Source: a virus
Length of the DNA stretch: 34,131 nucleotides
Direction: 5' to 3' (one strand)
IMG/VR virus record: IMGVR_UViG_3300043450_000456
Span: 1 to 34,131 of that record
Numbering within the stretch: position 1 is the first letter of the stretch; each line of letters starts with the position of its first letter. The notes beneath the pieces were generated by a model. The model was not told the origin of the DNA. It saw only the letters and a program-made list of their open reading frames with translations, and searched no databases. The translations under genes and the position numbers were made by a program. Positions 6,334 through 34,131 of this stretch are shown one piece after another.

Positions 6334-6525
6334 TCACTGCTGGAACACCAACGTGGAGAGCGGCCACCAGCCGCCGCCGCCCTCGTCGTAGGCCAGCTCC
6401 ACCATGGGATCGGCATTGAGGGACTCGAGCGCAAGGCTGAGCACCGTTGCGCCGCTCTCTGGGCTGATCAGATCCCGCCAGCAGCGCGAACCAATCGCTG
6501 GCAGGGGTGCCTTGGTGTCAGTCAT
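6334..6525 (-). CDS. Small unknown protein, last gene of the structural operon
   Basis: A 63-residue protein whose ATG lies three bases after the stop of the beta-propeller gene, so it is almost certainly co-transcribed and translationally coupled with it. The sequence is acidic, with a Gly/Trp-rich C-terminal part (DEGGGGWWPLSTLVF). It has no membrane helix and no known domain. Being the last gene of the fibre-type block, it could be a fibre chaperone, cap or small virion protein; this is inferred only from position. Confidence 0.6.
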   Translation of the reverse strand: MTDTKAPLPAIGSRCWRDLISPESGATVLSLALESLNADPMVELAYDEGGGGWWPLSTLVFQQ

Positions 6526-6528
6526 GGT

Positions 6529-7578
6529 TCAGGGGCTCACCATCACCCGGTTGCCAGCGCCGCTGTTGCTCACAGCGGCGAACTGACGCCGCTGGGGCGA
6601 CCAGCAAAGCGAGCGCCAACCCAGATCAGCTGGAGAGCTGCGCACCATCCAGCTGAGGCCATCGCCGCTGGTCATGATCCGGTTGCCGGTGCCGCTGCTG
6701 GCCGCCGCCACCAACAGCTCCCGCTCCGGCGCCCAGCAGAGGGAGGTCCAGGCGTTGTCGGCCGCCGAGCTGCGGCTGCTCCAGCTGATCCCGTCAGTAG
6801 AGGTCATCACCCGGTTGCCCCGACCGCTGCTGCTCAAGGCCACCAGCAGGCCGAGCTCCGCTGCCCAGCAGAGCGCACCCCAGTTGTTGTTGGTGGCGGC
6901 CGTCCGCAGCGTCCAGTTGCGGCCATCGCTTGAGGTCATCACCCGCTGGTTGCCGCCGGTGCTGCTCACCGCCACCAGCACCCCCAGCTGCGGCGCCCAG
7001 CAGAGGGAGCGCCATTCCTGATCTGCAGCAGCCTGGCGGGCTATCCAGGTGAGGCCATCGCTGGAGGTCATCACCCGGTTGCCCGTGCCACTGCTGGCCA
7101 CGGCTACCAACAGGCCCAGCTCGGGTACCCAGCAGACCCCTGTCCAGTTGTTGTTGGCCGGCGTCTGGCGCAGGGTCCAGCTGCGGCCATCCGGTGAGGT
7201 CATCACCCGATTGCCAATACCGCTGTCGCTGACGGCAACAAACAGCCCCAGCTCTTTGGCCCAGCAGAGGGCCACCCAGTTCTGATCGGCTGCTGATGGT
7301 TGGGCACTCCAACGGATGCCATCGCTTGAGGTCATTACCCGGTTGCCCGTGCCGCTGCCCGCCACGCAGGCGTAGAGCTGCAGCTCCGGTGACCAGCAGA
7401 TCGCCTGCCAGCTGTTGTCTGCCGCTGAGCGCACGGTTGACCAAACCACCCCGCTGATACCCAGCACTGGCGGCGGGTTCAGCAGCTCCGCCAGCGCCGC
7501 TGCCGGCAGCTGATAGGTGCCGGCCTGGGGCCCGGTGGAGCGGGTGATCGCCAGCAGGTCGCCTGGTTGGAGGGTCAT
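6529..7578 (-). CDS. Seven-bladed beta-propeller fibre-type protein
   Basis: From ATG 7578 the product has 349 residues (a TTG at 7590 is a weaker alternative). Residues ~1-45 hold a QPGDLLAITR anchor-like motif. Residues 52-315 are six complete 44-residue repeats and 316-349 a shortened seventh. Each repeat follows the pattern AADxxW..LCW.PEL.LLVAV.SSG.GNRVMTS.DG..W. The seventh lacks its final DG..W strand, while the strand SGVVWSTVRS just before the first repeat supplies one, giving a closed seven-blade ring with velcro closure. Such propellers occur in virion adhesion proteins, so a receptor-binding fibre or head fibre is likely. It lies in the minus-strand structural operon directly after a protein that shares its N-terminal motif. 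Confidence 0.82.
   Translation of the reverse strand: MTLQPGDLLAITRSTGPQAGTYQLPAAALAELLNPPPVLGISGVVWSTVRSAADNSWQAICWSPELQLYACVAGSGTGNRVMTSSDGIRWSAQPSAADQNWVALCWAKELGLFVAVSDSGIGNRVMTSPDGRSWTLRQTPANNNWTGVCWVPELGLLVAVASSGTGNRVMTSSDGLTWIARQAAADQEWRSLCWAPQLGVLVAVSSTGGNQRVMTSSDGRNWTLRTAATNNNWGALCWAAELGLLVALSSSGRGNRVMTSTDGISWSSRSSAADNAWTSLCWAPERELLVAAASSGTGNRIMTSGDGLSWMVRSSPADLGWRSLCWSPQRRQFAAVSNSGAGNRVMVSP
6540..7425 (-). repeat. Tandem 132-bp coding repeats
   Basis: Six full and one partial unit of 132 bp encode the propeller blades. The codons for NRVMTS.DG recur every 132 bp; on the plus strand they appear as gaggtcatcacccgGttgcc-like blocks. Units differ by many substitutions, so the array is old enough to have diverged but still keeps an exact length. 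Confidence 0.85.
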
Positions 7579-7590
7579 CAGCTGCGGCAA

Positions 7591-8268
7591 TCAGGGCAGG
7601 GCGGGCAGGGTGCTCAGGTCAAGCGGCATGTAGTCGCCGGCCGGCTGGGCAGTGGCCATGGCTTCCTTGAGGGCTGCTGCATCGACGGCGGCGCCCTCGG
7701 TGCCGGCGGTGAGGTCCTCGGCAGCCGCTAGGCGCAGCACGCCTGCAGCAGCGGTGGTTGCGGGATCGACGCTCAGCAGCGGTTGGGCGGGATCGCTTTC
7801 ATCAACGCTCAGTGGTGCAGCCACCTGGATGCGGATCACGCCGGCGCCATCGGGGCCGAGAGCAGCATTGGCACTCCAGCTGGTGCCGTCAAACAGCAGT
7901 AAATCCCCCTGGGCGATCTGCTCACCAGCAAGGCCCTGCCAGCTGGCCAGGGCAGGACCGCCAGCACTGGCCAGGTAAACATCCCCGACTGCAGCACCTG
8001 CCGGGGCCTCGGTGGTGGTTGGGTCGATCGCACCTCGGTAGGTGAGGGCACCGGAGATTGCGGCATGGAGGGTGCCATCGGCATCCACCGACAAGTTGGT
8101 GCCGGGCTTGATTGCACCGATCGCAGCCGCCGTGGCGGGGCTCAGCATGAAGGCCTTGACCTCATCAGCAGTGGCCCGGAATGGCGTGCTGCCGCGCTGC
8201 ACCAGCAGCAGGTCGCTGGGCTGGGGCTGGGAGCGGCTGGTGGTGCGGCTCTCGGTGGTGGTGGCCAT
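7591..8268 (-). CDS. Phage structural/fibre-type protein
   Basis: From ATG 8268 the protein has 225 residues (a TTG at 8280 would add four). Near its N-terminus it has QPSDLLLVQRGSTPFRAT, which matches the spacing of the motif in the next protein (QPGDLLAITRSTGPQAGTY). This pattern is seen at the start of virion fibre or attachment proteins. The middle holds an Ala/Gly-rich segment with GDVYLASAGG and LLFDGTSWSA, typical of low-complexity phage tail proteins. The C-terminus (ALKEAMATAQPAGDYMPLD) resembles a fibre tip or trimerisation region. No enzymatic motif is visible. It sits between an 80-residue protein and the beta-propeller and probably forms part of the same virion appendage. Confidence 0.7.
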   Translation of the reverse strand: MATTTESRTTSRSQPQPSDLLLVQRGSTPFRATADEVKAFMLSPATAAAIGAIKPGTNLSVDADGTLHAAISGALTYRGAIDPTTTEAPAGAAVGDVYLASAGGPALASWQGLAGEQIAQGDLLLFDGTSWSANAALGPDGAGVIRIQVAAPLSVDESDPAQPLLSVDPATTAAAGVLRLAAAEDLTAGTEGAAVDAAALKEAMATAQPAGDYMPLDLSTLPALP

Positions 8269-8310
8269 GACTATCAGCAAAGAAAAAGGGTTGGGAGATC
8301 AGAGCTCGAG

Positions 8311-8630: not shown

Positions 8631-9251
8631 TCAGAGCAGGGCATCACCCAGCTCCAGGGCAGCGAGGTCCGCTGCAGCCGTGTCGTTGGCCTGGGCTTCC
8701 AACGCCGTGGCCTGCTCAATCAGCTCCGCCTTGGTCTGGCTGCTATCGAGGTCCACGCCATGGACAGCCGAGCAGTAGTCGACGATCTGGGCCTTGGTCA
8801 TCGCCTGGAAGTCGGTGACCTCGGCTGCCAGCAGGGCGTCCCCGCTGCCAGCTCCGCCAGTGGCGGTTTCAGTAGGGGGCTCCAGTTCAGTGGTAGCGGC
8901 CGCCTCCCGCTCCAGGGCTGGTTCGAGAACAGGTTCGGGCTCTGGTTCGCCATCCGGGCCTGCTCCCTGATCGGGCTCTGGTTGTTCCGGCTCGGGTTCC
9001 GATGACGGCGGCTCCGTGTGCAGCTGCCAGCCCAATGCCTGCCAGCCAGCCAAATGAACCGGCCAGATCGAGCGGCTTTCGCCGTCCTTACTGATCAGCA
9101 GCTGGCTCGGCGGCAGCAGGGATTCATCACCCACCCCCGGATCCGGGGTGACGGTGAGCCGCTGCTCCGGTCCGTCCAGCGGCACCGGGGTGGAGGCGGG
9201 GTTGTTGCTATCAAGAGGCTGCAACAGTTGCAAGGGCATTGCGGTGTCCAT
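8631..9251 (-). CDS. Structural-operon protein with HeH/LEM-like C-terminal domain
   Basis: ATG 9251 is preferred because GAGGTGA lies six bases upstream; the product is 206 residues. The N-terminal part has short beta-like stretches (QRLTVTP, SQLLISKDGESRSIWP, WQALGWQLHT). A Pro/Glu-rich low-complexity linker covers about residues 84-128. The C-terminal ~35 residues (MTKAQIVDYCSAVHGVDLDS, then SQTKAELIEQA) match the helix-extended-helix fold of HeH/LEM and Rho-N-like domains found at the ends of phage virion proteins, where they may touch DNA. It sits two genes downstream of the capsid gene. A head-completion or neck role is a guess. Confidence 0.68.
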   Translation of the reverse strand: MDTAMPLQLLQPLDSNNPASTPVPLDGPEQRLTVTPDPGVGDESLLPPSQLLISKDGESRSIWPVHLAGWQALGWQLHTEPPSSEPEPEQPEPDQGAGPDGEPEPEPVLEPALEREAAATTELEPPTETATGGAGSGDALLAAEVTDFQAMTKAQIVDYCSAVHGVDLDSSQTKAELIEQATALEAQANDTAAADLAALELGDALL

Positions 9252-9261
9252 GGCACTCACC

Positions 9262-9696
9262 TCAAAGCCCCTGGTTGGCGGTCAGCGCCACGCACATCCC
9301 GACCGGCGTGCTGGGGGAGATCACAGCGCGGGCCAGCCGCAGGCAGGGCGGCACAACTAGTTCGCTGTCGGCTGGATTCAGCAGCAGGGCAGCACCGCTG
9401 ATGCTTGCCTCCACCTTGCCGCCAGCAGCGGGGATAGCGACCGCAGCGGCAGTTATCCAGCTGCCGGCTGTGCCATCAGCCAGCAGCGGCGCTAGCTCCA
9501 GCGTCACAGTTACCGCGTCGCTGTGGCCGGGGTGAGAAGCCACCAGCACAAAGGAGCAGGAGGCATCGAGGTCGGTGCCGAGGTTGATGACATCGCCGCT
9601 GCTGCGGCTGTGTTCGTAGCAGTCGGTTGCCGAGTGGTTGATCCAGCCGACGAGCACCGTCTGGGCATCAAGCAGCCGGGTGGCTTGGGTGGTCAT
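9262..9696 (-). CDS. Probable small virion protein (head decoration-like position)
   Basis: A 144-residue beta-rich protein (SFVLVASH, VTVTLELAPLL, SWITAAAVAIP, ALTANQGL) without membrane or enzyme motifs. GGAG lies about 12 bases before the ATG. It follows the major capsid gene by 75 bp and precedes the HeH/LEM protein by 10 bp, the place where decoration, stabilisation or head-tail joining proteins are commonly encoded. No family was recognised. Confidence 0.65.
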   Translation of the reverse strand: MTTQATRLLDAQTVLVGWINHSATDCYEHSRSSGDVINLGTDLDASCSFVLVASHPGHSDAVTVTLELAPLLADGTAGSWITAAAVAIPAAGGKVEASISGAALLLNPADSELVVPPCLRLARAVISPSTPVGMCVALTANQGL

Positions 9697-9771: not shown

Positions 9772-10713
9772 TTAGGGCACCACCAGCGGCATCGGCGCCA
9801 CGTTGTAAAGCCGTGCCGCTGCCTTGCGGTTGCACACCGCAAAGCCCACGTACCAATCCACGCGCGTGCGGAACACCGGTGCGTCATGCACCTCCCCGAA
9901 ATCACGCACCGCAATGCCATACCTGCCCTCAAACGGACCCTGCAGGCCGCAGACCGCCGCATCACCCAGTACGCAGCAGTAGATGGAGGTGGTGCCAGCT
10001 GGTTCGTCGTAACCGAGCACCGCATGGCCCTCGGCGTCTTCCTCCACCAGCAGGATCTCGATCCCCTCGAAGTAGTGGCGGCCGTCGATCACCTCATACA
10101 GCTCCCCGCCGGCCTGGCGGGAGGCGGTACTGATCTGGCGGCGGGCCGCCTTGCTGGCGATCAGAACCTTGTCGCCGCCGTAGCCGATCACGCTGTCGCT
10201 CAATGCCTCAAGCGCCAGCAGGTTGAGCGTGCTGCCGCCGTTGTCGATTGTTTGCTCGTCTCCAGGTGCCAGGCGCTTGCTCAGTCCGTTGAAGGCCCGC
10301 GGATCGAAGGTGTCATCGCCGTTGATGATCGCGGCTTCCAGCGTCAGACGCATGGAGCGCACCTTCATCTCGGTCTGGGCAGCACGGGCCTCGGGGCCCT
10401 GCAGATCCACGATCGAGCGGTCCACATCCAGGTCACCGCCAAAGAGGTGCACAAACTCCGAATCGGAGTTGATGACGCCGTAGCTCTGGCGGTAGCCCTC
10501 ATTCACTGCCCGAAAGCCAACGCGGGGGAGTTTCGTTTCAGCCGGGAAGCTCAGCGAGCCGCCGACAAGGTTGCGGAAGGGCAGGCGGCGCAGCAGCTCC
10601 CCCTCGGCAAAGGTCTTGAGCACCGCCAGCTGTTCAGCGCGGCGGGCATATTTCTGCGCCTCAATCAAGGTCAGGCCCAAGGGCACTCTCCCGGGGCCTT
10701 GCCCCAGTGACAA
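9772..10713 (-). CDS. Major capsid protein, HK97-fold type
   Basis: About 313 residues from a TTG at 10713; the frame is open further upstream, and a GTG at 10686 preceded by GGGAGA is another possible start. The sequence pattern is that of phage major capsid proteins: LTLIEAQKYA near the start, LLRRLPFRNLVGGSLSFPAE and VGFRAVNEGYRQSYGVI in the N-arm and E-loop region, a central INGDDTFDPRAFNGL, and a C-terminal P-domain-like end (GEVHDAPVFRTRVDWYVGFA, then AARLYNVA). There is no fused protease or delta domain, in line with the separate scaffold gene at 16611-17531. Between scaffold and capsid lie 5.9 kb of mostly plus-strand genes, an unusual interruption for a head module. Confidence 0.87.
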   Translation of the reverse strand: MSLGQGPGRVPLGLTLIEAQKYARRAEQLAVLKTFAEGELLRRLPFRNLVGGSLSFPAETKLPRVGFRAVNEGYRQSYGVINSDSEFVHLFGGDLDVDRSIVDLQGPEARAAQTEMKVRSMRLTLEAAIINGDDTFDPRAFNGLSKRLAPGDEQTIDNGGSTLNLLALEALSDSVIGYGGDKVLIASKAARRQISTASRQAGGELYEVIDGRHYFEGIEILLVEEDAEGHAVLGYDEPAGTTSIYCCVLGDAAVCGLQGPFEGRYGIAVRDFGEVHDAPVFRTRVDWYVGFAVCNRKAAARLYNVAPMPLVVP

Positions 10714-11320: not shown

Positions 11321-11429
11321 GGCGTAGTGGATGGGGTCTCCGAGTCAGCAGCCTTCCTTGATAGCAATGGCGGTGCGGTTCTGGCGCTGGCAAAGGCAGT
11401 GGTCAGCACCACGTCCGATGACCACCCCG

Positions 11430-12152
11430 ATGAGCGCCGAGCGGTTCAACGATCGCTTCCGCTTCTACCGCGATCAGCCGCAGCAGCAACGCGGAGTTTT
11501 GCAGCTGTTTGAAGCAATCAGCAGCAGCGACCAGGGCGCAGAGATCCTTGATGAGCAGGCCCCTTGGGCCATCGCCTTCAGCGAGCAGCCTCCGCAGTCG
11601 CAGCCCCCTGCTGGTGGTCTCGATCCCCGCGGTTCAGAGGAGGCCGGCATGGCTGGCCCACAGAAGCCGGCACCGGTCAAACCCGGTGATTCCTACCTGC
11701 TGGTGAATGACCGGGATGAAGACATGGAGGCCTATGACCACAGCGGCCGCTTCCTCTGGAAGATCCCCTGTCTGGCTAGGGGGCAGGGCGCTGACACCGA
11801 CTGGAGCCACACCAATACCGACACCCCGCCGGGTCTCTACAAGCTGGGGCAGCTGTATGCGGACTACGAGCAGAACCCGAATCCGCCCTGCTCCGATACC
11901 GCCATGGCCTACGGCTGGTACTCGTTTGATATGCAGGAGCTGGAGGGCCAGGAGGTCAAGGCCGGCCGGGCCGGGATCATGCTTCACGGCGGTGGTTCTG
12001 CCTGCGGCTGGCCCGGCGCCTGGGCTCCGCAACAGCCATTGCATCCCACCTTGGGCTGCGTCCGCATTCACAACGCCGATCTACGCGACAAGGTGCTGCC
12101 CCTCTACCGCCAGGGCACGGTCTATGTGGGGGTGTTTCAGGAAAAAAAGTGA
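11430..12152 (+). CDS. L,D-transpeptidase-fold (YkuD) cell-wall protein
   Basis: ATG 11430 gives 240 residues; ATG 11418 is an alternative, and the longer frame from 11331 looks non-coding at its start. Residues ~5-55 form an N-terminal module (FNDRFRFYRDQPQQQ) of unknown fold, followed by a Pro-rich linker. From ~85 a YkuD-like domain runs to the end: SYLLVNDRDEDMEAYD, then TPPGLYKLG, GIMLHGGG with the conserved His at ~186, and HPTLGCVRIHN with the catalytic Cys at ~210. YkuD enzymes form or exchange 3-3 peptidoglycan crosslinks. There is no signal peptide. The stop overlaps the start of a lysozyme-like gene by one base (TGATG), so a cell-wall or lysis role within the element is likely. Confidence 0.78.
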   Translation: MSAERFNDRFRFYRDQPQQQRGVLQLFEAISSSDQGAEILDEQAPWAIAFSEQPPQSQPPAGGLDPRGSEEAGMAGPQKPAPVKPGDSYLLVNDRDEDMEAYDHSGRFLWKIPCLARGQGADTDWSHTNTDTPPGLYKLGQLYADYEQNPNPPCSDTAMAYGWYSFDMQELEGQEVKAGRAGIMLHGGGSACGWPGAWAPQQPLHPTLGCVRIHNADLRDKVLPLYRQGTVYVGVFQEKK

Positions 12153-12730
12153 TGCCGGGGCCCGTGGACCAGGAGTCCGGGCCCCACACCAACCTGCAGC
12201 ACTGGCTGGAGTTCTTCTGCAGCAGCGCCGTAACCGAGGCCAGCCTGGGCGTCATCAAGCCCCTCACGGCTGAGGAGGCCTGCGGTTTCCTCGGCTGCAT
12301 GGTCATCGAGACCGGTGAGCCGGAGTTGGAGAACCTCGATGTAATCGAGGCAGGCAGTGGTGCCGGTCGCGGGGCCATGCAATACACCGGCGTGCGGCGC
12401 AGCGCCTATGACGCGGCACGTCAACAGGCCATCGAAGAGGGCATCGATCCCAACAGCAACAGCTGGCAGGAGCGGTATTTCGCGGAGGAGTATGCCGGCC
12501 TGCACGACCCGCCCGAGGGTTCGTTAATCGGCTGGACCCGGGTATTTGAGGACCGCCCCTCTGGCATGGATCCAGCAGCAGCAGCGGCCTACTGGACCGG
12601 TTCGGCTGCAGCGGCTGAGGGTTACTTCAGGCCCGGCACACCGCACCAAGAGCGGCGCCAGGCAGAAGCCCAACGGATCTGGGGTTTGTTCCAGGGCGGT
12701 GAGCTTGTGCTGCCTTCCGCAGGGGGCTGA
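12152..12730 (+). CDS. Phage tail-lysozyme-like muralytic protein
   Basis: ATG 12152 overlaps the preceding stop (TGATG) and gives 192 residues. The sequence follows the phage tail lysozyme pattern: EEACGFLGCMVIETGEPELE supplies the helix with a catalytic-type Glu, then GAGRGAMQYTGVRRSAYDAA holds the G.MQ(W/Y)TG..R motif of the family, then a helix (NSWQERYFAEEYAG) typical of this fold. It should cut peptidoglycan glycan strands. There is no signal sequence, in keeping with release by a holin, and the next gene encodes a small membrane protein. It could also be a virion-borne lysozyme. Confidence 0.72.
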   Translation: MPGPVDQESGPHTNLQHWLEFFCSSAVTEASLGVIKPLTAEEACGFLGCMVIETGEPELENLDVIEAGSGAGRGAMQYTGVRRSAYDAARQQAIEEGIDPNSNSWQERYFAEEYAGLHDPPEGSLIGWTRVFEDRPSGMDPAAAAAYWTGSAAAAEGYFRPGTPHQERRQAEAQRIWGLFQGGELVLPSAGG

Positions 12731-24198: not shown

Positions 24199-24222
24199 GC
24201 TGATGAGCGTTCACTCATCAGC
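24199..24222. terminator. Perfect hairpin at the sigma gene 3' end
   Basis: GCTGATGAG and CTCATCAGC form a 9-bp stem with a 6-base loop, and the sigma stop codon lies inside it. It sits between the convergent DUF262 and sigma genes. There is no T-run, so termination is likely but unproven. Confidence 0.45.
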
Positions 24223-24900
24223 AAAAGCAACCACACGCATTGAGCAGGCATCAACAATCTGTATCCACTGCTCCCGGGTTATCCCTATCCGCTCCAGCAT
24301 CTCGCCCACGCCAACTCCCGACGTCAGCAACCGCTGCCCCCGCGCATGGAACTCCCGCCATGTTGGCGGCACCTTGAGTAAGAAACCGTTGTCACGCAGA
24401 AAGTGGGTGATCTCCCCGTTGGCGTAAGTGCGGCCATAGGGCCGGAACGGACCCCGTGAGGGGTCATAACGGCGGGCCGCTTTTATCAGCCCAATCATCG
24501 CCAGCTGCAGCAAGTCCTCCTTTGGGTGGACGGTGCGGCGAGCGAAGTTACCGGCTATCTTCTCAGCCAAGTCCATTTGCTCCAGCGCCAGAGCGTCGGC
24601 AGCGGCATGCGGCCGCACGGGACGCTCACGCCGCGGCCGGTCGAGCGAAGCCTGACGGGCCGGAGCCCTCGGCGGATGCCGAGCAGGCTCTGCCCATTTG
24701 ATCTCCAGCTGCTCCGCTCGCGCACAACAAGCCGGCCGGCGGTAGCGGCGTTGCCGCAGCATCCGCGACGCACCGGAAGTCGTTCCCACCAGCACCACCG
24801 TGATCGGCAACGACAGCTGAAGCACTTCTGGTTGCCCATCCACAGGCGCCAGAGCCTGCTGGGGCAACTGCTCAGGGGCTGCCATCACTGCACCCGTCAT
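24211..24900 (-). CDS. Sigma-70 family factor lacking region 4
   Basis: A 229-residue protein. The first ~95 residues form an unusual basic extension with a hydrophobic strand (LSLPITVVLVGTTSG). Region 2 is clear at ~105-165 (KIAGNFARRTVHPKEDLLQL, then GLIKAARRYDPSRGPFRPYG), ending in RDNGFLLKVPP. A region 3-like helix bundle follows (EMLERIGITREQWIQIVDAC). The protein stops there, with no region 4 helix-turn-helix. In another frame after the stop, NAHQHVPAGSLADDQLL resembles the linker that normally leads to region 4, so the gene may have been cut short by a frameshift and the nearby insertion. It starts 20 bases after terL on the same strand. Confidence 0.8.
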   Translation of the reverse strand: MTGAVMAAPEQLPQQALAPVDGQPEVLQLSLPITVVLVGTTSGASRMLRQRRYRRPACCARAEQLEIKWAEPARHPPRAPARQASLDRPRRERPVRPHAAADALALEQMDLAEKIAGNFARRTVHPKEDLLQLAMIGLIKAARRYDPSRGPFRPYGRTYANGEITHFLRDNGFLLKVPPTWREFHARGQRLLTSGVGVGEMLERIGITREQWIQIVDACSMRVVAFADE

Positions 24901-24919: not shown

Positions 24920-26578
24920 TCACCTGCTCATCAGCAGTGGCGTCACCACCGGCTGGATGCCCTGGGCCTTCCAGTAGCGGCCCTCCAGCCAGAGGGCGCC
25001 GTGACAGAAGGCATCCACCAGGTCCTTGCTGCCCTTGGGGAAACGGATCGCTTCCTCCACCAGCGGCTGGGCACGGTGGTGGAAACGAATTTGACCTGCT
25101 TCCACCAGGGGAGCGACGGCATGGGCGCGGGTTTCCTTGCTGCCTCTCGCGGTGATCGGCAGCATCCCCGGTACGCGTCGCCGGAGGGTTTGCAGCACGG
25201 CAGGACCGTTGGCGGCGTCCTCGATCAGCACGGCGTTGGGACGCAGGCCCTGCTGCTCCAGCGCCTGCAGGCAGCCCAGCAAAAAGCGAATCACATCCGG
25301 GAGGCCAAAGCGGTGCCGGGCAGCCCAGAGCACCTCCATCTCCAAGGCAGTGATTTGAGGCGGACCCTCGTGTTCGCCTGTGCGCGGGTTGAGCGGTCTC
25401 GGTGGTGGTGCCAGCAGACCCGCCAGGCAGAAGCCGCAGTAGTCGCTCTCTGCCTCCCCCTTGAAGGACAAGTCGCAGGAAAGCGCCAGCAGGGCGTACT
25501 GGCGCTGACGGCCAGTGGTCGCTCCTGTCGCCTCGCGGGGAAAGGGCGGCCGGATCCAGTTGCGCAGAAAGATTGATCCAGACGCTGGGCTGGGCCGCTG
25601 CTGATACAGCGCTGCCCACCAGTAAGCACCGAGGCGGGCGCGGATTTTGACCAGCTCGCTCAGCGGGAAGCGCTCCGGGCACAGCGCCTCTCCCGGTTGG
25701 CGCCAGTCCGGGATCAAGGTGCAGGTGGGCGGCAGCTTGGGGCGTTCAGCCCGCTCTTCTGCAACTGCGGGTAGGTCGAGCACGGTCCACTGCTGGGGGG
25801 CCTCGCCCAGCTCCTGCTCGTAAAGCCAGCCGATCACGTCTTGGTGGTCCCAGCGGGTGAGCACCACCACCTGGGCTGAGAGGTTCGGCTGCTCGTTGCC
25901 GTCTGGGCCCAGCACCATGGCCGGTTCAGCCCGGGTGAGCCACACCGAGCGCAGCCAGTCGATCAGCTTCTGCCGCAGCGCCGGGGATGCGGCATCACCT
26001 GGTCCCTTGTAGGGGTCGTCGATGATCCCCAGGCTGTAGCCCTTGCCGGTAAAGGGGCCATCCACACCAGCAGCAATGCAGCCACCGCGCTGGCGAGTAA
26101 GCCAGTTGCCCACCGCAGCTGAGTCGCGGGCCAGCAGGTGGCCGGTCACCCGGTAGAAGTGGCGCGCTTCTCTGGAGTGGGCGTAAGCCAGTTCGGCTGA
26201 GTACGAGGCGATTGCCGCAAATAGATGCGGGTAGCGCTGCAGGAAGTAGGCCGGGAACAACTTGGAGACCAGCAGCGACTTTCCCAGCCGCGGCGGACAG
26301 GTAACGATCAGCCGGCTGAGCTGGCCATCGGCCACCTGCTGGAGCAGCTCGATCAGCACGTCAGCCCAGCGGTGGAAGCCGTAGCGGGGGTAGGCCTCGG
26401 CGATAAAGCTGCGCAGGCTCTGGGGTTCCGCCTGGATTGGGGTGGTGGTTGTGGGCAGGTGCAGTAGGCCGGCGTCACCCCAGGGGTCGAGCTGGCTCAG
26501 CAGCAGACCGCCTTCTGCAGGGGCCTGTTGCGTGAGCACCGGTGCTGGCATCACGGTGGCGGCGGTGCTCACGGTCAT
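24920..26578 (-). CDS. terL: Large terminase subunit
   Basis: A 552-residue packaging motor. The ATPase domain has Walker A-like CPPRLGKS at 94-101 and Walker B LGIIDDPY at ~183-190. The SQVVVLTRWDHQDVIGWL-type segment that follows is typical of this TerL branch. The RNase H-like nuclease domain shows ALSCDLSFKG around 367, IEDAANG further on and the closing DLVDAFCHG. The start overlaps the small subunit stop as ATGA. TerL cuts and pumps DNA through the portal. All catalytic motifs look intact, so packaging could still be functional. Confidence 0.92.
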   Translation of the reverse strand: MTVSTAATVMPAPVLTQQAPAEGGLLLSQLDPWGDAGLLHLPTTTTPIQAEPQSLRSFIAEAYPRYGFHRWADVLIELLQQVADGQLSRLIVTCPPRLGKSLLVSKLFPAYFLQRYPHLFAAIASYSAELAYAHSREARHFYRVTGHLLARDSAAVGNWLTRQRGGCIAAGVDGPFTGKGYSLGIIDDPYKGPGDAASPALRQKLIDWLRSVWLTRAEPAMVLGPDGNEQPNLSAQVVVLTRWDHQDVIGWLYEQELGEAPQQWTVLDLPAVAEERAERPKLPPTCTLIPDWRQPGEALCPERFPLSELVKIRARLGAYWWAALYQQRPSPASGSIFLRNWIRPPFPREATGATTGRQRQYALLALSCDLSFKGEAESDYCGFCLAGLLAPPPRPLNPRTGEHEGPPQITALEMEVLWAARHRFGLPDVIRFLLGCLQALEQQGLRPNAVLIEDAANGPAVLQTLRRRVPGMLPITARGSKETRAHAVAPLVEAGQIRFHHRAQPLVEEAIRFPKGSKDLVDAFCHGALWLEGRYWKAQGIQPVVTPLLMSR

Positions 26579-27129
26579 GCCCTCGGCTCCGGTGGCTTGA
26601 TCGGTGCCCGCAGCAGGCCGCCGATTTCAGCGATCACCCGGAAGGCACCCACGGCTGCCGAAAACTGCTCGGAATCCATGGCCCGGCGGGCGCACTCATT
26701 GAGCGCAAAGATCTGCTCGGCCTGATGGCGCCGGCGGTCGGTGATCAGCTCCTCCACCATCCGCTCGCGGGCGAGGTTGAGGTAGCGGTTCACCGTCTGG
26801 CTGTTGCGGACCCCCCATTTCTCACCAGCATTTTCGAGGATCTGCACCAGCGGCAGTCGCTGAGCGATCCAAAGCTGGGCCTCCGCGATGCGTCGCTCGA
26901 TCTCCAGTCGGCTGGGTCTAGGGACTGGGATTGCCCCACGCTTCTGCCGCGGTGGATTGCCCTTGCCTACGGGGCGGCTGGGGTCAACGCCCACCGTCTC
27001 GCCCAAGGGCAGGCCGTCGGCGTCCTCTGCCAAAGCAGCAGTGCGCAGGGCTTCTATGGGATCGAGCTGGCGAGCCTCCAGCAGCGCAAGAGCACTGGGA
27101 TCAGCAGCGGGAGGGTGTCCGGCAGCCAC
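26575..27129 (-). CDS. terS: Small terminase subunit
   Basis: A GTG at 27129 preceded by AGGTG gives 184 residues; the frame extends to an ATG at 27219 but that leader is Cys/Arg-rich and unlikely. The protein has a helical middle (PSRLEIERRIAEAQLWIAQR, then WGVRNSQTVNRYLNLARERM), which fits a DNA-binding helix-turn-helix, and a helical C-terminal oligomerisation region. The stop overlaps the terL start (ATGA), the usual terS-terL arrangement. TerS recognises the packaging site; a cluster of repeated motifs lies 200-490 bp upstream. Confidence 0.8.
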   Translation of the reverse strand: MAAGHPPAADPSALALLEARQLDPIEALRTAALAEDADGLPLGETVGVDPSRPVGKGNPPRQKRGAIPVPRPSRLEIERRIAEAQLWIAQRLPLVQILENAGEKWGVRNSQTVNRYLNLARERMVEELITDRRRHQAEQIFALNECARRAMDSEQFSAAVGAFRVIAEIGGLLRAPIKPPEPRA

Positions 27130-27328
27130 GCGTAAACAACACCTGCAGAGGAAAAAGCAATGCCAACGCGAATGAGAGGCGGTGTATTTGCGTTCCCGAA
27201 AGCATAGCCGCGTTGCCAAGGGTTGCTCCCTGCCGCCGTGAGTCGCGCTACCGGTGCCGAGCGAGCCCGCTCCTGCCTGTCCACTCCAGGGCTGCTGGCT
27301 GCTGCTGCTGCTGGCCTGCCCGGGCCCG

Positions 27329-27620
27329 TCTAACAGGCCGGAGGGGTTCTAACAGCGTTCTAACAGCTGCTGTTAGACCTCAGATCCACTGCGCAGCAGC
27401 AGCTCTGGGGTGCTCTCCTCTTCTTTCTAACCTTCTAACAGAAAGAGATAGATACACAAGCAAAGAGGGGGAGGCAGGGGGTCTCTCCTGGATCAGGGGG
27501 GTGCACTGGGGTGTGTAAAGAGAGAGTCCCTACCCCCTGTAGGAGTGTTAGAACGTTAGATACCAGTCACTGCAAGGGGTTTCGCCCTAACAGCCCAGTT
27601 AGAGAACGGGCCCATCTAAC
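27329..27620. promoter_or_regulatory. TTCTAACAG iteron-like cluster (origin or packaging site)
   Basis: About eleven copies of TCTAAC or its complement GTTAGA (one with C for the first T) occur in 292 bp. In direct orientation they begin at 27329, 27348, 27359, 27426, 27434, 27586 (variant) and 27615. Inverted copies lie at 27370-27377, 27546-27552, 27554-27561 and 27597-27604. Two copies form a 19-base palindrome at 27359-27377. An A-rich purine tract (27441-27470) lies in the middle. The cluster lies between the primase end and the terS start, so it may be a replication origin bound by an initiator, the terS recognition site, or the control region of the late operon. Confidence 0.65.
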
Positions 27621-30364
27621 GCTCCGGAGCCGGTGAGCATGGCCAGGGGCAGGGCCACAGCCCGCGAGCTGCCCAGGCCGCGAAAGTGCACCAGCTGCGA
27701 GCGGCTGGCGCCAGGTAGGCGGCTGAGGATGGCACCCCAATTGGCCACCCAGGCGGTATCCGCCAGCATGCGGGCAATGGCTTCTGCGCTGTTGCTGATC
27801 AGCAGCTCCCCCTCCCGCACGCGGAGGCCATGGCGGGCCAGCAGGTCGGCGGCATCAGCGGGCCGCACCGGCTCCATCGGTGAGGGCAGGGCGCTGGACA
27901 CCAGCTCCACCAGTTCCAGCACCGTGCGGGACAGCACCGAGCGCTCCTCGCTCTCCACCCGCAGCTGGTGCTGCAGGATCCGGTTGAGGCAGCGGCGCTC
28001 ATCCGGGACCTCCGTGCTTTCGCGGTAGCTGCTCCAGTCCGCGCCATCGATCAGGCTCTGCACCTCCGCCGCGCTGGGCACGCGCGAGGCCTGCAGCGAC
28101 CAGGCACCGGCTAGCAAGGTGCCGTACTGATCGCCCAGGGCCTGGGAATCGAAGTGAGCGGCCGCCACCTGGGAGCAGACGACTATCGAGCGCCGGATCA
28201 CCGGGATCAGCGCCACGGTGCGGGCGATCAACCGGTTGGCGAACTCCGGTGTGATCAGCTGCTCGAGGTCCCGGTCCAGCGCCTGCCAGTGCGCCTCCCG
28301 CTGCTGCTGGGGGAGCTCGCTGGGGTTGCGCAGGTTGAGCGGCGCAAAGCGGCGCCGGTCGGCGCCCTGCTTGAGGCCGGTGGCGATAGAGGAGAGCAGG
28401 AACATCGAGCGCACCGAGTAGCGCGCCACCTCGCCTGTAGGTGAGCCCTTGACGATCGCTGCGCGGGATTCGGAACTGGCCACCCGCGCCAGCGCGAGGA
28501 TCGCCTGAATGCGCTGCTGGTCCTCGCGCTCGTTGCTCTCCGCCTCATCGATCAGCACCGGCAGGGCATCAGAGCGCAGGGTCTGGCGGATGCCAGCTTC
28601 TGTGACGCTGCCGACGAACACCTGCGCCAGATCGGCCAGCAGCACGCCGCAGAAGCGCTCAAACAGGTGCGACTTGCCCGAGCCGGCCGGGCCGCTCAGC
28701 CAGAGGTGGGGCCGCCAGCGCAGGGCACCACAGATCGGCGCCAGCGTCAGCCATCCCGCCAGCAGCATTGCGGAAGCCGGCACCTCCCAGTGGAAGCGGT
28801 CCGCCAAGGTGAGCACCAGCAGGGCCTCCTCGTCGCTGAGCGGCTGGGCAGCCCCCGTGCCCACTAGGGCAGTGCCGCGCTGGTAATGAAAGCGGCTAGC
28901 GAGGGTGGCACTGAGTGGCCGCGGCTCACCATCCACCACCAGGCGATCGCCCAGATGCAGCACGCAGCGGCCCTCGTCCCACCAGCTGCCGCGGCCGCGC
29001 AAGCGATCGGGATCGAACATTCCCACCGCCGCCTGACGGCAGAACAGATCAGAAGCCGCGGCCGTCCAGTTCACGCCCCGCTTATTGGGGTAGAGGGTTT
29101 CCCAGTAGGCCAGGGGCGCCAGCCGGCAGAGGTTCACGCCGCCGTGGGCCGAGGAGCCCAGCCGCATCACCTGGCCGGTGGAGCGCGGTTGATAGAAGTA
29201 GCCGTCGCTGTCGTAGCCCAGGCACACGTAGGGCTCACCGCCTGAGGGGCCTGGCCGCTCAGGCGGCACTAAAAGAGAAGCGCCGCCCTGCAGCACAGGT
29301 GCCGGATCAGCGGCCGGGGCTTTCGCGTCGTCGTCGGCCTCTGACTGCGGTAGTTGCACTGTTCGGCAATGGGCCTCCAGGTAGGCCTGGGCTTCTGCCG
29401 CACTCCAGCTGGCATCGGCCAGATCCCAGCCCGCTGCGCCCGGTGCATCCACCAGGTCCCAGTCCGCCTCCGTACTGCCCGGCGGCAGCACCACCGCCAC
29501 TAGGCAGCCGAGCTCCAGCAGCACGGCCGAGAGCCGCGCCATCGCCTCACGTCCACTGGTATCGGCATCGGGCCAGAGGCTGACGGCGCGGCCGGCTAAG
29601 GGGCTCCAGTCGACGCTGCCAATGGCCTGGCTGCCGCCGCACCAGCTCACCACCACGTGATCGGGGAACAGCACTACGGCGGCATCGGCTGCCTTCTCCC
29701 CCTCGGTGATCAGCACCGGCGACCAGAAGTGGCGCTCTAACTCCGCCAACCGGTAGAGCGGCCTGGGGGCACGCCAGTCGGAGCGGAACGGATCGCGGCG
29801 GGAGGGGAAGTGCCAGCCCCCAGCCAGCCAGGTGCGCTGCACGAACACCTTGCGCTGACGGCCGCCCTGCAGCAGATCCAGTCGCTGCACCCAGAACAGG
29901 GGTGCTCCGGCCGCGTCGGTGTAGCACCACTGGCCGCTGGCGCGGCCCAGCTCCGGCGGCGGGGCAGAGGGCGGTGGGGTGTCCGGGATGCGGGTAGGTC
30001 TGCCGGCCTTGCTGCCTGAGCGGCTGTGCCTGGGGCTGGCTGGGGCTGGCCGGTGCGGGCCTGGCTGCGCCGGCAGGGCCAGGTGGGCCTGGATGCGGCG
30101 GGCAGCTGTGGCGAAGTCCCAGCCAGTAAGGCGCAGCAGCAGATCCATGCCGCTGCCACCGCCACCGCGCTGCTCGCGGCCTCCGCACTGGTTGCAGAAC
30201 CAGCCGCCCGGGCCGTCATCGCGGTCCCAGCGGTAGCGGTCGGTGCCGCCGCAGGCGGGGCAGGGCTGATGGCGGTTCTCCAGCTGCTCCGGTGCCAGAG
30301 CAGCGAGCTCGATCAGCAGCCGCGGCCACTGGCCAGCCGCAGCTGCCAGCACATCGGTGGCCAT
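27599..30364 (-). CDS. Primase-helicase replication protein
   Basis: A 921-residue replication protein. A zinc ribbon at ~35-62 (CPACGG and CNQCGG) leads a primase module. A Toprim domain follows, with LITEGEKAADAA near 218 and SLWPDADTSGREA near 265. A second half carries a P-loop ATPase with GPAGSGKSH at ~558-566 and LIDEAESNE near 603, as in phage and plasmid superfamily 3/AAA-type replicative helicases. It should unwind and prime the element's own DNA. The start overlaps the ribbon-helix-helix gene stop (TGATG). The motif cluster at its 3' end is a possible origin. Confidence 0.87.
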   Translation of the reverse strand: MATDVLAAAAGQWPRLLIELAALAPEQLENRHQPCPACGGTDRYRWDRDDGPGGWFCNQCGGREQRGGGGSGMDLLLRLTGWDFATAARRIQAHLALPAQPGPHRPAPASPRHSRSGSKAGRPTRIPDTPPPSAPPPELGRASGQWCYTDAAGAPLFWVQRLDLLQGGRQRKVFVQRTWLAGGWHFPSRRDPFRSDWRAPRPLYRLAELERHFWSPVLITEGEKAADAAVVLFPDHVVVSWCGGSQAIGSVDWSPLAGRAVSLWPDADTSGREAMARLSAVLLELGCLVAVVLPPGSTEADWDLVDAPGAAGWDLADASWSAAEAQAYLEAHCRTVQLPQSEADDDAKAPAADPAPVLQGGASLLVPPERPGPSGGEPYVCLGYDSDGYFYQPRSTGQVMRLGSSAHGGVNLCRLAPLAYWETLYPNKRGVNWTAAASDLFCRQAAVGMFDPDRLRGRGSWWDEGRCVLHLGDRLVVDGEPRPLSATLASRFHYQRGTALVGTGAAQPLSDEEALLVLTLADRFHWEVPASAMLLAGWLTLAPICGALRWRPHLWLSGPAGSGKSHLFERFCGVLLADLAQVFVGSVTEAGIRQTLRSDALPVLIDEAESNEREDQQRIQAILALARVASSESRAAIVKGSPTGEVARYSVRSMFLLSSIATGLKQGADRRRFAPLNLRNPSELPQQQREAHWQALDRDLEQLITPEFANRLIARTVALIPVIRRSIVVCSQVAAAHFDSQALGDQYGTLLAGAWSLQASRVPSAAEVQSLIDGADWSSYRESTEVPDERRCLNRILQHQLRVESEERSVLSRTVLELVELVSSALPSPMEPVRPADAADLLARHGLRVREGELLISNSAEAIARMLADTAWVANWGAILSRLPGASRSQLVHFRGLGSSRAVALPLAMLTGSGALDGPVL

Positions 30365-30629: not shown

Positions 30630-32024
30630 GTGTCCTTCCACCTGCGCCCCTATCAGCAGGAGGCCGTAGAGCGCGTGCGCCAGGCCTTCCTTTTTGGCCA
30701 TCGCGCCGTGCTCTTTGTGCTGCCGACCGGCGGCGGCAAGACCGTGGTGTTCAGCCACATCGCCAAGCAGGCCGCCGCCCGCGGCAAGCGCATCGCCGTG
30801 CTGGTGCACAGAGCTGAACTACTTGATCAGGCCTGCCGCTCCCTAGCGGCTATGGGGGTGCGCCATGGCGTGATCGCCGCCGGCCGCTCCATGAACCTGG
30901 CCGCGCCAGTGCAGGTAGCCAGCGTCCAGACCCTGGCCCGGCGCCTGGCGCAGCTGCCGGCCGATCTGTTCCAGCTGCTGGTGGTGGATGAGGCCCACCA
31001 CAGCAATGCCGGCACCTGGGCCAAGGTGATCGGCCACTTTGATCGAGCCCTGCTGCTGGGCGTCACGGCCACTCCAGTGCGAGGCGATGGCCGCGGCCTC
31101 GGCGAGTTCTATTCCGCCTTGGTGCTCGGCCCCAGCGCCGCCTGGCTCTGCGCCGAGGGCTACCTGGCGCCGGCGCGGGTGTTTGCCCCACCGCTGGGTT
31201 TCTCTGCGAAGGGCCTGCGGCGGCGGATGGGGGATTTCGACCTGAGGCAGGCCGCCGGTGAGCTGGGCGGCAGCCGCATCCTTGGCGATGCCGTCAGTCA
31301 CTACCTCAGCCACCTGAGCAGAAGCACGGCCATTGCCTTCTGCTGCTCGATCGCCCACGCGCAAGCCGTGGCGGAAACCTTCTCGGAACGGGGCGTGGCC
31401 GCGGCCTCGATCGATGGCTCGATGGACCCCCTGCAGCGGCGGCGGTTGCTTGAGCAGCTCGGCAGCGGTGAGCTGCAGGTGCTCACCAGCTGCAACCTGA
31501 TTGGTGAGGGGGTTGATGTGCCGTCGGTGGGGGGCTGCCTGCTGCTGCGGCCCACCCAGAGCCTGGCGCTGCATCTCCAGATGATCGGCCGCTGTCTGCG
31601 GCCCCAGCCGGGCAAGCAGGCGGTGATCCTCGATCACGTCGGCAATATCGAGCGTCTCGGTCACCACCTCGACGAGCAGGAGTGGAGCCTCGAGGGCGTG
31701 CGCAAGCGCAAGCAGAGCAAGGCCCCCTCCGTGAAAACCTGCCCGGAGTGCTTCTGCGCCATGGCCAGCGACGCCAGCCTCTGCCCGGAATGCGGCAAGC
31801 AGTTCCGGTCTGAAAAACGGCAGCTGGTGACGGTGGCCGGCGAGCTGAGTGAACTGAGCCAGCAGGAGCTGCGCAGAGAGCGCCGCCGCGAGCAGCGCCA
31901 GGCCCGCACCGCGGCTGAACTGGAAGCGCTGGGAAGCCAGCGCGGCATGAAAAACCCCAAGGGCTGGGCGCGGCATGTGATCGCCAGCCGCCAGGCGCGC
32001 GGCCAGTGGGAGCTGCTGGCATGA
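30630..32024 (+). CDS. SF2 DEAH-type helicase with zinc ribbon
   Basis: A GTG start at 30630 gives 464 residues. Superfamily 2 motifs are complete: PTGGGKT at 32-38 (motif I), DEAH at 120-123 (II), TATP at 146-149 (III), GEGVDVPSV (V) and QMIGRCLRP near 313 (VI). A zinc ribbon CPECFCAM...CPECGKQF lies at ~370-390, followed by a charged helical tail. It is RadD/phage-type in build and should remodel DNA during replication or recombination. It is coupled by ATGA to a VRR-NUC nuclease and diverges from the replication operon. Confidence 0.88.
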   Translation: MSFHLRPYQQEAVERVRQAFLFGHRAVLFVLPTGGGKTVVFSHIAKQAAARGKRIAVLVHRAELLDQACRSLAAMGVRHGVIAAGRSMNLAAPVQVASVQTLARRLAQLPADLFQLLVVDEAHHSNAGTWAKVIGHFDRALLLGVTATPVRGDGRGLGEFYSALVLGPSAAWLCAEGYLAPARVFAPPLGFSAKGLRRRMGDFDLRQAAGELGGSRILGDAVSHYLSHLSRSTAIAFCCSIAHAQAVAETFSERGVAAASIDGSMDPLQRRRLLEQLGSGELQVLTSCNLIGEGVDVPSVGGCLLLRPTQSLALHLQMIGRCLRPQPGKQAVILDHVGNIERLGHHLDEQEWSLEGVRKRKQSKAPSVKTCPECFCAMASDASLCPECGKQFRSEKRQLVTVAGELSELSQQELRRERRREQRQARTAAELEALGSQRGMKNPKGWARHVIASRQARGQWELLA

Positions 32025-32365: not shown

Positions 32366-32387
32366 GGAAGCATTGGGCGCTCAGGCC

Positions 32388-32591
32388 TCAGAGCAGCCGG
32401 CGACTGCGGCGAGCGAGTGTTCGCTCCACTTCATCAATGTTCCACAGCAGGGGCGGTCTGCTCACTCCGGCGCCGGCTGCTCGGAAATGGTCTCCAGCCC
32501 GCAGTACCCCATCTCTGCGCAGACGCAACAGGCTTCTGTCACTAATGCGTAGGGCCTCGCAGGCCTCCCGGGTTGAGTGTGTATACGCCAT
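32388..32591 (-). CDS. Excisionase-like helix-turn-helix protein
   Basis: ATG 32591 gives 67 residues; the frame extends to 32642. It begins with STREACEALRISDRSLLRLR, a MerR/excisionase-type helix-turn-helix, followed by RRDGVLRAGDHF, the wing typical of such proteins. PPLLWNIDEVERTLARR closes the domain. It lies directly downstream of the integrase on the same strand. It probably controls integrase direction or represses transcription. Confidence 0.68.
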   Translation of the reverse strand: MAYTHSTREACEALRISDRSLLRLRRDGVLRAGDHFRAAGAGVSRPPLLWNIDEVERTLARRSRRLL

Positions 32592-32907
32592 GGAGCGCCT
32601 GGGTTCGCCTGGATCGGAATGTAGGCGAACTTCCCGAGGCACAACTGTTCCCTGAGCCGCCTATCTGCGGGGCTGAACGTGTCAGCGTGCTGCCCCTAAT
32701 TTGGTTACTAAATAGAATCCTTGGTGGGGGTCTTTTCGGTAACCCCTCTCCTGCTTCCGGCTCTGCTGGTGTCCCATAGGGGAACCCGCAGCCCTTCTAC
32801 CTTGCTGACGCTGAAGTGCTGCGTCGCAAGCGGGGCAGGGGGCGCCGCGCAAACTTAATAATGTTTTCTGCATCCCATTTGGGAACCTGCGCTCCAGGTC
32901 TTTTGCA
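32592..32907. promoter_or_regulatory. Region between integrase and excisionase genes, with repeats
   Basis: A pair of direct repeats, TCCCATAGGGGAACCCGC at 32772 and TCCCATTTGGGAACCTGC at 32873, each holding a near-palindrome TCCCAT..GGGA, are operator or recombination-arm candidates. GGTTAC (32703-32708) and GTAACC (32739-32744) face each other across 30 bp. The region is AT-richer than average and could also hold the recombination core site. An 80-residue minus-strand frame at 32682-32924 overlaps the integrase end and is not well supported. Confidence 0.45.
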
Positions 32908-34131
32908 TCAGTGATCGGCATCAAGAGGGGGGCGGTTGACCAGTTCCCGTACCCGCGCTTCCAGGCGAGGCATCTCCAGCCGGCGGCCGTAGGTCTGCAG
33001 GTGCACCGCTGGTGAGTGGCCCATCAAGGCGGCGCTCTCGCGCACATGCAGCCCCAGGTCGAGGCCCAGCCGCAGGGCAAAGGCATGGCGCAGCCCGTAG
33101 GAGGTCAGCTCCGAAGGCAGCTCGGCGGCAATGGCCTGGCGCTGCTGCAGTCGCTTGAGCTGCTGGCTGAGCACTTCGCCAGGTGAGCGGTGCTGCACCA
33201 CGCAGTCCGGCAGTCCGTAGGTCAAGAAGCGATCGACGAGCTGCTGGCAATCGGCCGGCCAGCCAGCTGGGGGAACAGCGGGTACGCGGCGTTGGCCCGT
33301 GCTGCCCCGGCTGTTGCGCTTGGCATGGGAGACCACGGCCACGGGGTGCCCTTGCTCCTTGAGTAGCACCAGACCTTTGAGTTCAGCAGGGCGCAGCCCA
33401 AAGGCCACCAGGCAGTCCCAAGCCACCAGGTCGGCCGCCCCAAGACGAAGACTGGCCTCGACGCGCGCGCGTAGCTCAGTGATCTCCTCGTCACTGAAGG
33501 CGCGAACACCTTCCGGGGGCGCCACGGCCTTGCCATTGCCGCGCAAGGGCGCCAAGGACTCCGGCCAGGGCCAGCCAGCTGCCTTCCACAGCTGCCGGTA
33601 GCGGTTGAACGCCATCTGGCGTGAGCGGCTGTTGGGAGCCCAGTGCCGCAGGGTGGTTTGCAGCAGCTCCTCGTCGAGTAGCCAGTGCCGGTTGGCCGCT
33701 TGCTGCGTGAGCTTCCCGTAATAAGGAAGGTAGGTGCGCTGCCAGGTGGAGATCCCCACCGTCTCCCCGAGCAGTCCCTTCTCAAGCCGCAGGATCACCT
33801 TGTTCAGTTCCTCCGGGCGTAGCCGGCGCTCATTGCCTGCTGGGAGGCAGTCCTCCGGGGCTGGCCAGCGCCAGGTGCCAGCCATGACCGCTTCATGGAT
33901 GGCCATTGCTTCTGTGAGCGCTTCTGAGGTCTTGTCGGGCGCCGCGCTGGTCTGCAGGGTGACGGCCCGGAGCTTGGGAGCTGCTGCGGCAGGTTCATCA
34001 GGGCGGAGCGGCAGCTCGGCGCTCAGCACCCGCAGGCGGTCGTGGTGCAGCTGGAGAAACCAGCCACCCCGTCCGCCACGACTGCGCTTGAAGCTGCGGG
34101 AGAGGTCCTTGAGCCACGGCGGGCTGGCCAC
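32908..34131 (-). CDS. int: Tyrosine recombinase/integrase, cut by the window edge
   Basis: At least 407 residues; a GTG falls on the last three bases, but the true start may lie outside the window. The N-terminal part resembles an arm- and core-binding region. The catalytic domain has FGLRPAELKGL (first Arg), AKRNSRG as a possible Lys strand, TSYGLRHAFALRLG (second Arg; the usual first His is Tyr), LMGHSP (His) and HLQTYGRR with the nucleophilic Tyr. It should integrate the element, with the attachment site probably to the right of the window or in the 32592-32907 region. It is transcribed into the element, ahead of the excisionase-like gene. Confidence 0.9.
   Translation of the reverse strand: MASPPWLKDLSRSFKRSRGGRGGWFLQLHHDRLRVLSAELPLRPDEPAAAAPKLRAVTLQTSAAPDKTSEALTEAMAIHEAVMAGTWRWPAPEDCLPAGNERRLRPEELNKVILRLEKGLLGETVGISTWQRTYLPYYGKLTQQAANRHWLLDEELLQTTLRHWAPNSRSRQMAFNRYRQLWKAAGWPWPESLAPLRGNGKAVAPPEGVRAFSDEEITELRARVEASLRLGAADLVAWDCLVAFGLRPAELKGLVLLKEQGHPVAVVSHAKRNSRGSTGQRRVPAVPPAGWPADCQQLVDRFLTYGLPDCVVQHRSPGEVLSQQLKRLQQRQAIAAELPSELTSYGLRHAFALRLGLDLGLHVRESAALMGHSPAVHLQTYGRRLEMPRLEARVRELVNRPPLDADH

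Follow-up and report, generated by a model that had tools for sequence, protein, structure and literature searches.

The DNA analysed here is the IMG/VR record IMGVR_UViG_3300043450_000456, whose 34,131 bases form the whole window. It is a fragment, probably of a larger integrative element, that encodes a virus head and a probable neck. On the minus strand, read from right to left, lie the genes for an integrase, a small probable excisionase, a primase-helicase, the small and large terminase subunits (TerS and TerL), a sigma factor, the portal and a 189-residue protein (u189), followed by a LysM protein, scaffold, capsid, a 144-residue protein (u144), fibre-like genes and, near the end, a propeller protein. 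The plus strand carries a helicase and a lysis cassette (L,D-transpeptidase and phage lysozyme). No gene was detectable tail-ward of the stopper, either here or in the related elements. The packaging and head genes are the following:

26575–27219, minus strand: terminase small subunit, by position (4-base overlap with terL; phrog_34910, of unknown function, 7e-4)
24920–26578, minus strand: terminase large subunit (phrog_38, E 7e-74)
24211–24900, minus strand: sigma factor adjoining terL (Sigma70_r2)
20476–22053, minus strand: portal protein, 525 residues (phrog_145, E 1e-19; DUF4055)
19962–20531, minus strand: probable head-tail adaptor u189, 189 residues (remote profile match to cyanosiphovirus neck proteins)
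18789–19958, minus strand: probable head-completion stopper (residues about 50–220) with three C-terminal LysM repeats (remote profile match)
16611–17531, minus strand: scaffolding protein (phrog_206, E 3e-11)
16314–16589, minus strand: small conserved protein of unknown function, 91 residues (near-clade copies 77–99% identical, median dN/dS 0.18)
9772–10713, minus strand: major capsid protein (phrog_212, E 6e-54)
9262–9696, minus strand: u144, 144 residues, head decoration protein by position only (in both clades, 50–99%)
8631–9260, minus strand: 209-residue protein of unknown function (near relatives 44–76%)
7591–8280, minus strand: fibre-like protein, 229 residues (weak collar-fibre match, 0.034)
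6529–7590, minus strand: propeller-repeat, adhesin-like protein, 353 residues (47% to a Synechococcus phage B23 protein)
6334–6525, minus strand: small protein encoded last in the head operon, 63 residues (71–89% where found in relatives)

The integrase, primase-helicase, TerL, portal, scaffold and capsid named in an earlier note on this DNA were all confirmed by profile; TerS and the excisionase are placed by position and weak matches. The portal was, as that note had it, the longest structural open reading frame (ORF), the longer 567-residue ORF beside it encoding a GmrSD-type restriction enzyme. Portal matches were found in eight phage records, all of them PSS2, S-CBS2 or S-CRES1-3, at about 29% identity, and the best phage records among the TerL matches listed were cyanophages (34–36%). 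u144 had no BLAST match among 50,697 phage records.

Capsid relatives with 95–99% identity were found on seven further IMG/VR contigs, and in all seven the portal, u189, LysM protein, scaffold, capsid and u144 genes occur in the same order. A scan of bacterial genomes yielded 14 loci, the genome titles naming Synechococcus, Cyanobium, Vulcanococcus or a cyanobacterial metagenome-assembled genome, in agreement with the cyanobacterial host proposed earlier. Nine genome stretches holding ten copies were compared, and the six-gene head block was present in 10/10, the LysM gene of Cruz-8D1 being split by an insert. Genomes and viral contigs also contain a second clade, whose capsids are about 60% identical and whose genes beyond u144 differ. 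The u189 profile matched 56 of 400 genomes sampled from the family of WH 5701, with up to eight matches per genome. The LysM profile was discarded as a measure of prevalence (99/299 genomes of the order), as it also counts ordinary LysM proteins. Of the integrase-to-propeller order, whose recurrence the earlier note had put forward for checking, the head block recurs; the integrase and replication genes vary. Window-type primase was present in 5/7 contigs (one of them, G005, a short fragment) and 7/10 genome copies, CS-1330 carries a different primase-like ORF, and excisionase homologues (39–48%) were found in 4/7 contigs and 7/10 genome copies. The integrases of relatives are only 25–32% identical to that of the window.

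Comparison of 20 window proteins with PHROGs gave three matches labelled as tail, namely, a baseplate-hub family (phrog_46) through the LysM repeats (1.5e-4), a collar-fibre family with the 229-residue protein (0.034) and a tape-measure family with the coiled scaffold (0.17). The non-core ORFs of the closed relatives CS-1330 (55/57), Clear-D1 (41/43) and contig G006 (38/38) were scanned at E 1e-3; border-crossing ORFs were omitted from the scans (four in CS-1330 and Clear-D1, four in FGCU6). Among the families listed (the best 25 of 33 for CS-1330, 20/20 for Clear-D1 and the best 25 of 46 for G006) none was of tail or connector, which bears out the earlier statement that no tail module is recognisable. 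A rescan of 64 of the 93 scanned ORFs of CS-1330 and G006 returned 17 families, none of tail, and the 45 ORFs of at least 100 residues in the cargo regions of FGCU6 returned 19 families at 1e-5, again none of tail.

The same pattern was obtained from the phage side. Chosen proteins of PSS2, S-CBS2 and S-CBS1 (88 in all) were compared by tblastn with 98 element sequences, in which overlapping stretches are counted apart and one of which (L122) has a capsid merely 30% identical. For PSS2 and S-CBS2, the capsids matched 90 and the portals 75 of the 98, the scaffolds 78 and 83, TerL 56 and 55, sigma factors 60 and 58, and lysozymes 23 and 24, respectively. The Neck1, tail-tube and tape-measure proteins of both phages had zero matches in the 98. 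A domain of S-CBS2 gp031 and PSS2 gp087 matched 9 and 10 sequences, respectively. S-CBS2 gp036 (NC_015463, 29477–30208), annotated as host specific protein J, matched 83 element sequences, best at the scaffold gene, and is probably the scaffold of that phage. Conversely, 81 loci with an S-CBS2-type tail tube held no relative of u189, portal or u144, while the LysM-family, capsid and scaffold queries found distant phage relatives in 3, 2 and 2 of these loci.

u189 and the LysM protein probably correspond to two neighbouring neck proteins of these phages. Among 271 ORFs of PSS2, S-CBS2 and S-CBS1, some double-counted from overlapping loci, the u189 profile matched best PSS2 gp061 (43%) and S-CBS2 gp011 (29%), and the LysM profile S-CBS2 gp013 (63%) and PSS2 gp062 (23%). 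In PSS2 the two genes are direct neighbours and in S-CBS2 a single gene separates them; in both phages they precede Neck1, tail tube and tape measure. Against four-phage alignments, u189 reached 89.9% (E 1.7e-6, 79 columns; S-CBS2 gp011, S-CRES, PSS2 gp061) and the LysM protein 95.8% (E 7e-9; S-CBS2 gp013, S-CRES, PSS2 gp062); the Neck1 alignment, taken as control, gave 0.2% with both profiles. S-CBS2 gp013 also matched one element sequence directly at the LysM-family gene (8e-6). BLAST against the 50,697 phage records found none for u189 and only LysM-repeat matches for the LysM protein. In BFVD, the top-ranked match of u189 was F4YCJ2 (E 7.7e-3), and the LysM protein had F4YCJ4 in second place (E 2.7e-4); since their lengths (134 and 167 residues) equal those of gp011 and gp013, they were taken to be these proteins. 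The predicted u189 is helical (mean predicted local distance difference test score 68.5). Its model has no solved structure above Z 5.2 (a neck chain of phage Sf14), so the case for an adaptor is made by synteny, a single BFVD hit and the profile match. The AlphaFold2 core barrel of the LysM protein weakly resembles the phage neck chains 8zdj_M, 8hdr_A and 8kef_A (Z 4.6–5.5); its solved-structure matches are mostly LysM domains, and unrelated flavin-reductase barrels appear at similar Z. Gene order, the helical and barrel models and the weak likeness to neck chains make u189 a probable adaptor and the LysM protein a probable stopper. By the earlier note, a match of either to a tail tube, nozzle or ejection protein would have refuted the satellite; both match probable siphovirus neck proteins instead. 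The stopper core is extended by three LysM repeats in the clade of the window; second-clade homologues are shorter.

The head genes are kept by selection, as judged from the ratio of nonsynonymous to synonymous substitution (dN/dS) computed on copies at least 75% identical. Median values were 0.05 for capsid, 0.084 for portal, 0.112 for TerL, 0.125 for the LysM protein, 0.153 for scaffold and 0.22 for u189. A first calculation across both clades (medians 0.14–0.64) included many pairs at dS near 1 and was redone. In the capsid tree, rooted at the midpoint and including three long phage branches, one branch (100/99) separates 33 element capsids from 7 phage capsids, and the element capsids form several subclades. 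The portal tree holds merely two phage sequences and adds little. The tail-less state looks old and maintained rather than a recent decay, although single broken copies exist.

Taken together, integration, replication, packaging, capsid, sigma-factor and lysis genes are present by sequence along with the two neck homologues. The element is best explained, with a probability of about 0.74, as a member of a capsid-forming, tail-borrowing satellite lineage whose structural genes derive from the head portion of a cyanosiphovirus with a long tail; the borrowing itself is inferred. The element would excise, perhaps when an S-CBS2/S-CRES-type cyanosiphovirus infects the cell, and replicate with its own primase-helicase. 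Its own heads would be filled via TerS/TerL and closed by adaptor and stopper, on which the tail of the other virus would dock. The particle would then bring the element (46–56 kb in the best-bounded relatives), along with its defence genes, into a new cell for integration at a tRNA gene. As to possible tail donors, the S-CBS2-type tail tube occurs in eight phage records, the identical eight with a related portal, and at 218 places in IMG/VR, of which 80 were kept for analysis. Two IMG/VR numbers, 3300031758 and 3300044971, each of which we take to mark a sample, include both an element and a tail-bearing contig.

Whether the missing half could reside elsewhere in the host, with the element supplying one part of a divided phage or of a system akin to gene transfer agents, was considered in view of the many copies per genome (eight u189 matches in Cruz-8D1). 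The S-CBS2-type tail tube, the only tail type searched, was present in 1/400 genomes of the family and in none of the 56 carriers of u189; the Neck1 family phrog_5 was found in 0/56 carriers (5/14 known genomes in the control) and one tape-measure family in 1/56, its control having found 0/14 known genomes. The tape-measure match, L240 (G211:C5), possibly belongs to a separate prophage. Such an arrangement is therefore very improbable, and these figures would fit helpers that are mostly non-resident in the host genome.

It is also unlikely that the element is a short-tailed, podovirus-like temperate phage in which adaptor, LysM nozzle, fibre and propeller proteins make up a minimal tail. The fibre-like and propeller genes do come after the capsid genes, LysM would suit a part facing the cell wall, and a protein like the major tropism determinant (Mtd) of S-CBS1 is carried by 3/98 element sequences, those matched by the S-CBS1 Mtd. 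The best of these, 60% identical, lies downstream of an element capsid gene (L104:6875–7918). Diversity-generating retroelements are able to change the target of Mtd-type proteins. Yet the neck homologues sit in phages that also encode a major tail protein and a tape measure, no nozzle match stood out in the structure searches, and the genes after u144 are not the same in the second clade. The LysM part, moreover, is dispensable for assembly because 11 of the 34 homologues listed do without it, having the 187–211-residue core alone. A relic of PSS2-like siphovirus prophages, with the tail lost by decay, is a still less probable explanation. The PSS2 paper calls islands of RS9917 (terL, integrase, sigma, ORF25 and lysozyme) relic prophages (PMC2784084), RS9917 entering this comparison through that paper only, and ORF25 is PSS2 gp025, the portal matched by the element portal. 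Broken copies exist as well: apart from the split LysM gene of Cruz-8D1, internal stops were seen in near-clade stretches of u189 (3/18), capsid (1/18), sigA (1/13) and ykuD (1/17), and three u189 sequences among the matches listed in the family-genome scan contain one. Among the LysM-profile matches listed 18 have a stop, in at least one case because the match overruns the gene end. Decay would have removed the tail throughout while neighbouring head genes remain; the low dN/dS over the head genes, the single branch of element capsids with several subclades, and the existence of a circular form (G006) speak against it, and the eroded prophage entertained in the earlier note is thus unlikely. 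About as improbable as the relic is a tail-less HK97-type head that attaches directly through the adhesins of the element (propeller, Mtd-like, collagen-like) and the LysM neck, or that rides on another virion as MiniFlayer does.

Several observations weigh against the tail-borrowing satellite. The neck homology is remote, single-sequence hhalign reaching at most 43% for u189 and at most 63% for the LysM protein; the phage adaptors found nothing in the 98 element sequences by tblastn, nor did the TerS proteins of PSS2 and S-CBS2, and S-CBS2 gp011 and gp013 have no PHROG family. A tail of an undescribed kind would slip past the profiles used. Fibre or adhesin genes are retained (the propeller protein, and the Mtd-like protein in the three sequences above), which a pure tail borrower would not need, and some copies carry stop codons or inserts. 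The two shared samples establish no specific element-helper pair. The elements are also larger than known satellites, whose averages by family are given as 9.5–18 kb (PMC10803314).

The remaining features of the window, including its defence cargo, are as follows:

32908–34131, minus strand: tyrosine integrase, 407 residues (phrog_1, E 1e-5; Phage_integrase below its cut-off), reaching the right contig edge and possibly cut
32388–32642, minus strand: small protein, probable excisionase (sole profile match phrog_5914, E 0.32)
30630–32024, plus strand: superfamily 2 type helicase (phrog_16, E 4e-103; adjoins the primase in relatives having it)
27599–30364, minus strand: primase-helicase (phrog_35358, E 8e-128; Zn_Ribbon_Prim)
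22404–24107, plus strand: GmrSD-type (type IV) restriction enzyme, 567 residues, cargo (GmrSD_N 5e-40; PADLOC HEC-06/Orf5)
17632–18594, plus strand: accessory ORF, a variable insert (among seven contigs and nine genome stretches, in Clear-D1 only)
12149–12730, plus strand: lysozyme of the lysis cassette (Phage_lysozyme2, 1e-8)
11331–12152, plus strand: L,D-transpeptidase, YkuD (PF03734, 4.5e-5)
5731–6318, plus strand: second sigma factor (Sigma70_r4_2, 2e-9)
1–3113, plus strand: bacteriophage exclusion (BREX) genes pglZ (cut at the edge) and brxL (PADLOC PglZ 1e-112, BrxL 2e-286)

Neither the Rfam nor the tRNA scan of the window gave a match. Relatives are integrated at tRNA genes of picocyanobacteria, the site of the window itself lying beyond its edge. 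The CS-1330 element spans 46.3 kb between 50-base tRNA-Arg repeats. In Clear-D1, three 46-base tRNA-Gly end copies delimit two tandem elements of 56,093 bases (G010:C18:84274–196505, L051–L056) with zero mismatches across the 39.9 kb compared, representing a recent double integration, a concatemer or an assembly effect. FGCU6 has an 85-base repeat (96.5%) at tRNA-Gly 100.8 kb apart, a span that may contain nested insertions. At the other five tRNA sites tried, no second repeat of at least 15 matching bases was found at the expected place. The first 99 bases of contig G006 (49,900 bases) are repeated at its end, giving a 49.8 kb unit that is either a circle or a tandem read-through; its single 45-base tRNA-Gly fragment near the integrase is the pattern expected of an excised circle.

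Defence islands are probably interchangeable between these elements. The GmrSD gene sits between the sigma factor and the portal, has 45% GC at third codon positions, and lies in two kilobases of 43–47% GC as against mostly 65–67% in the adjoining structural region. The BREX genes of the window are probable cargo of the element and are located at the same seam, beside the second sigma factor, as the cargo of relatives. The element, earlier given a left limit at 6334, probably extends further left because relatives have defence-type cargo at that seam. A low-GC ORF beside brxL (3158–4174) matches the defence candidate PDC-M09A (2e-8). At the corresponding seam, inspection of G006 by eye indicated McrBC-like and type I restriction genes, and methyltransferase families were matched there too; the cargo of Clear-D1 includes a methyltransferase and a large helicase, and in contig C9 of HJ21-Hayes the head genes are followed downstream by brxL (37% identical) and an ORF resembling pglZ. 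The FGCU6 element contains several CRISPR-like repeat arrays (G015:C47, about 210000–230300) together with genes of the Cas1, Cmr and Csm6 types; the repeats yielded 39 segments, with no match, among the matches listed, to the phage-type loci compared.

The capsid-forming integrative element without a recognisable tail that the earlier note described is hence supported, while its suggested membership in the capsid-forming phage-inducible chromosomal islands (cf-PICI) or the tycheposons has not been established. Tycheposons of Prochlorococcus, too, are elements that integrate at tRNA genes in picocyanobacteria. Some of them have been proposed as satellites, and a deep-branching tyrosine recombinase is their hallmark. 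With the cyanosiphoviruses PSS2, S-CBS2 and S-CRES1-3 the elements share the portal, the scaffold-capsid pair, the adaptor and stopper homologues and, in PSS2 and S-CBS2, the order terS-terL-sigma; the phages, however, continue into Neck1, tail-tube and tape-measure genes, none of which was matched in the elements.

As described in PMC10690885, cf-PICI have their own terminases, portal, capsid and head-tail connectors and no tail genes. The present elements are similar in encoding terminases (TerS by position), portal, major capsid and connectors (by remote homology) and in having no tail genes by profile and BLAST among the families listed. The average cf-PICI is 14 kb (PMC10803314), and the elements, at 46.3, 49.8 and 56.1 kb, are 3.3–4 times as large. 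A head maturation protease counts among the cf-PICI features; the elements have a scaffold instead and, by profile, no head protease family among the PHROG hits listed for the 20 window proteins and three relatives; their size and the lack of a detected protease argue against cf-PICI membership. They differ also in their cyanobacterial hosts, their PSS2/S-CBS2-type head genes and their defence islands. The element functions, on this reading, like a cf-PICI but is not classed as one. MulchRoom, a Streptomyces satellite compared by description only, has its own capsid, portal, scaffold, terminases, adaptor and integrase and a long tail thought to be helper-derived; no primase is recognised in it and its capsids are small (PMC10690885).

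Among the titles and abstract openings listed in searches of open-licence PMC papers, and in passages from papers on freshwater picocyanobacteria and phages, no description of this element family was seen. If the reading is correct, some islands called relic prophages could be reinterpreted as movers of defence genes, the cargo in the examples read being restriction, BREX, McrBC-like or CRISPR. Named strains (WH 5701, V. limneticus) and isolated cyanosiphoviruses would offer a system in which to test how head-tail joining sets helper range. A 2024 review states that capsid-forming satellites could in principle exceed their helpers in genome size, yet do not (PMC11389934). A lineage of 46–56 kb (100.8 kb between repeats in one genome), with the adaptor gene in 56/400 genomes, would break the size pattern of satellites.

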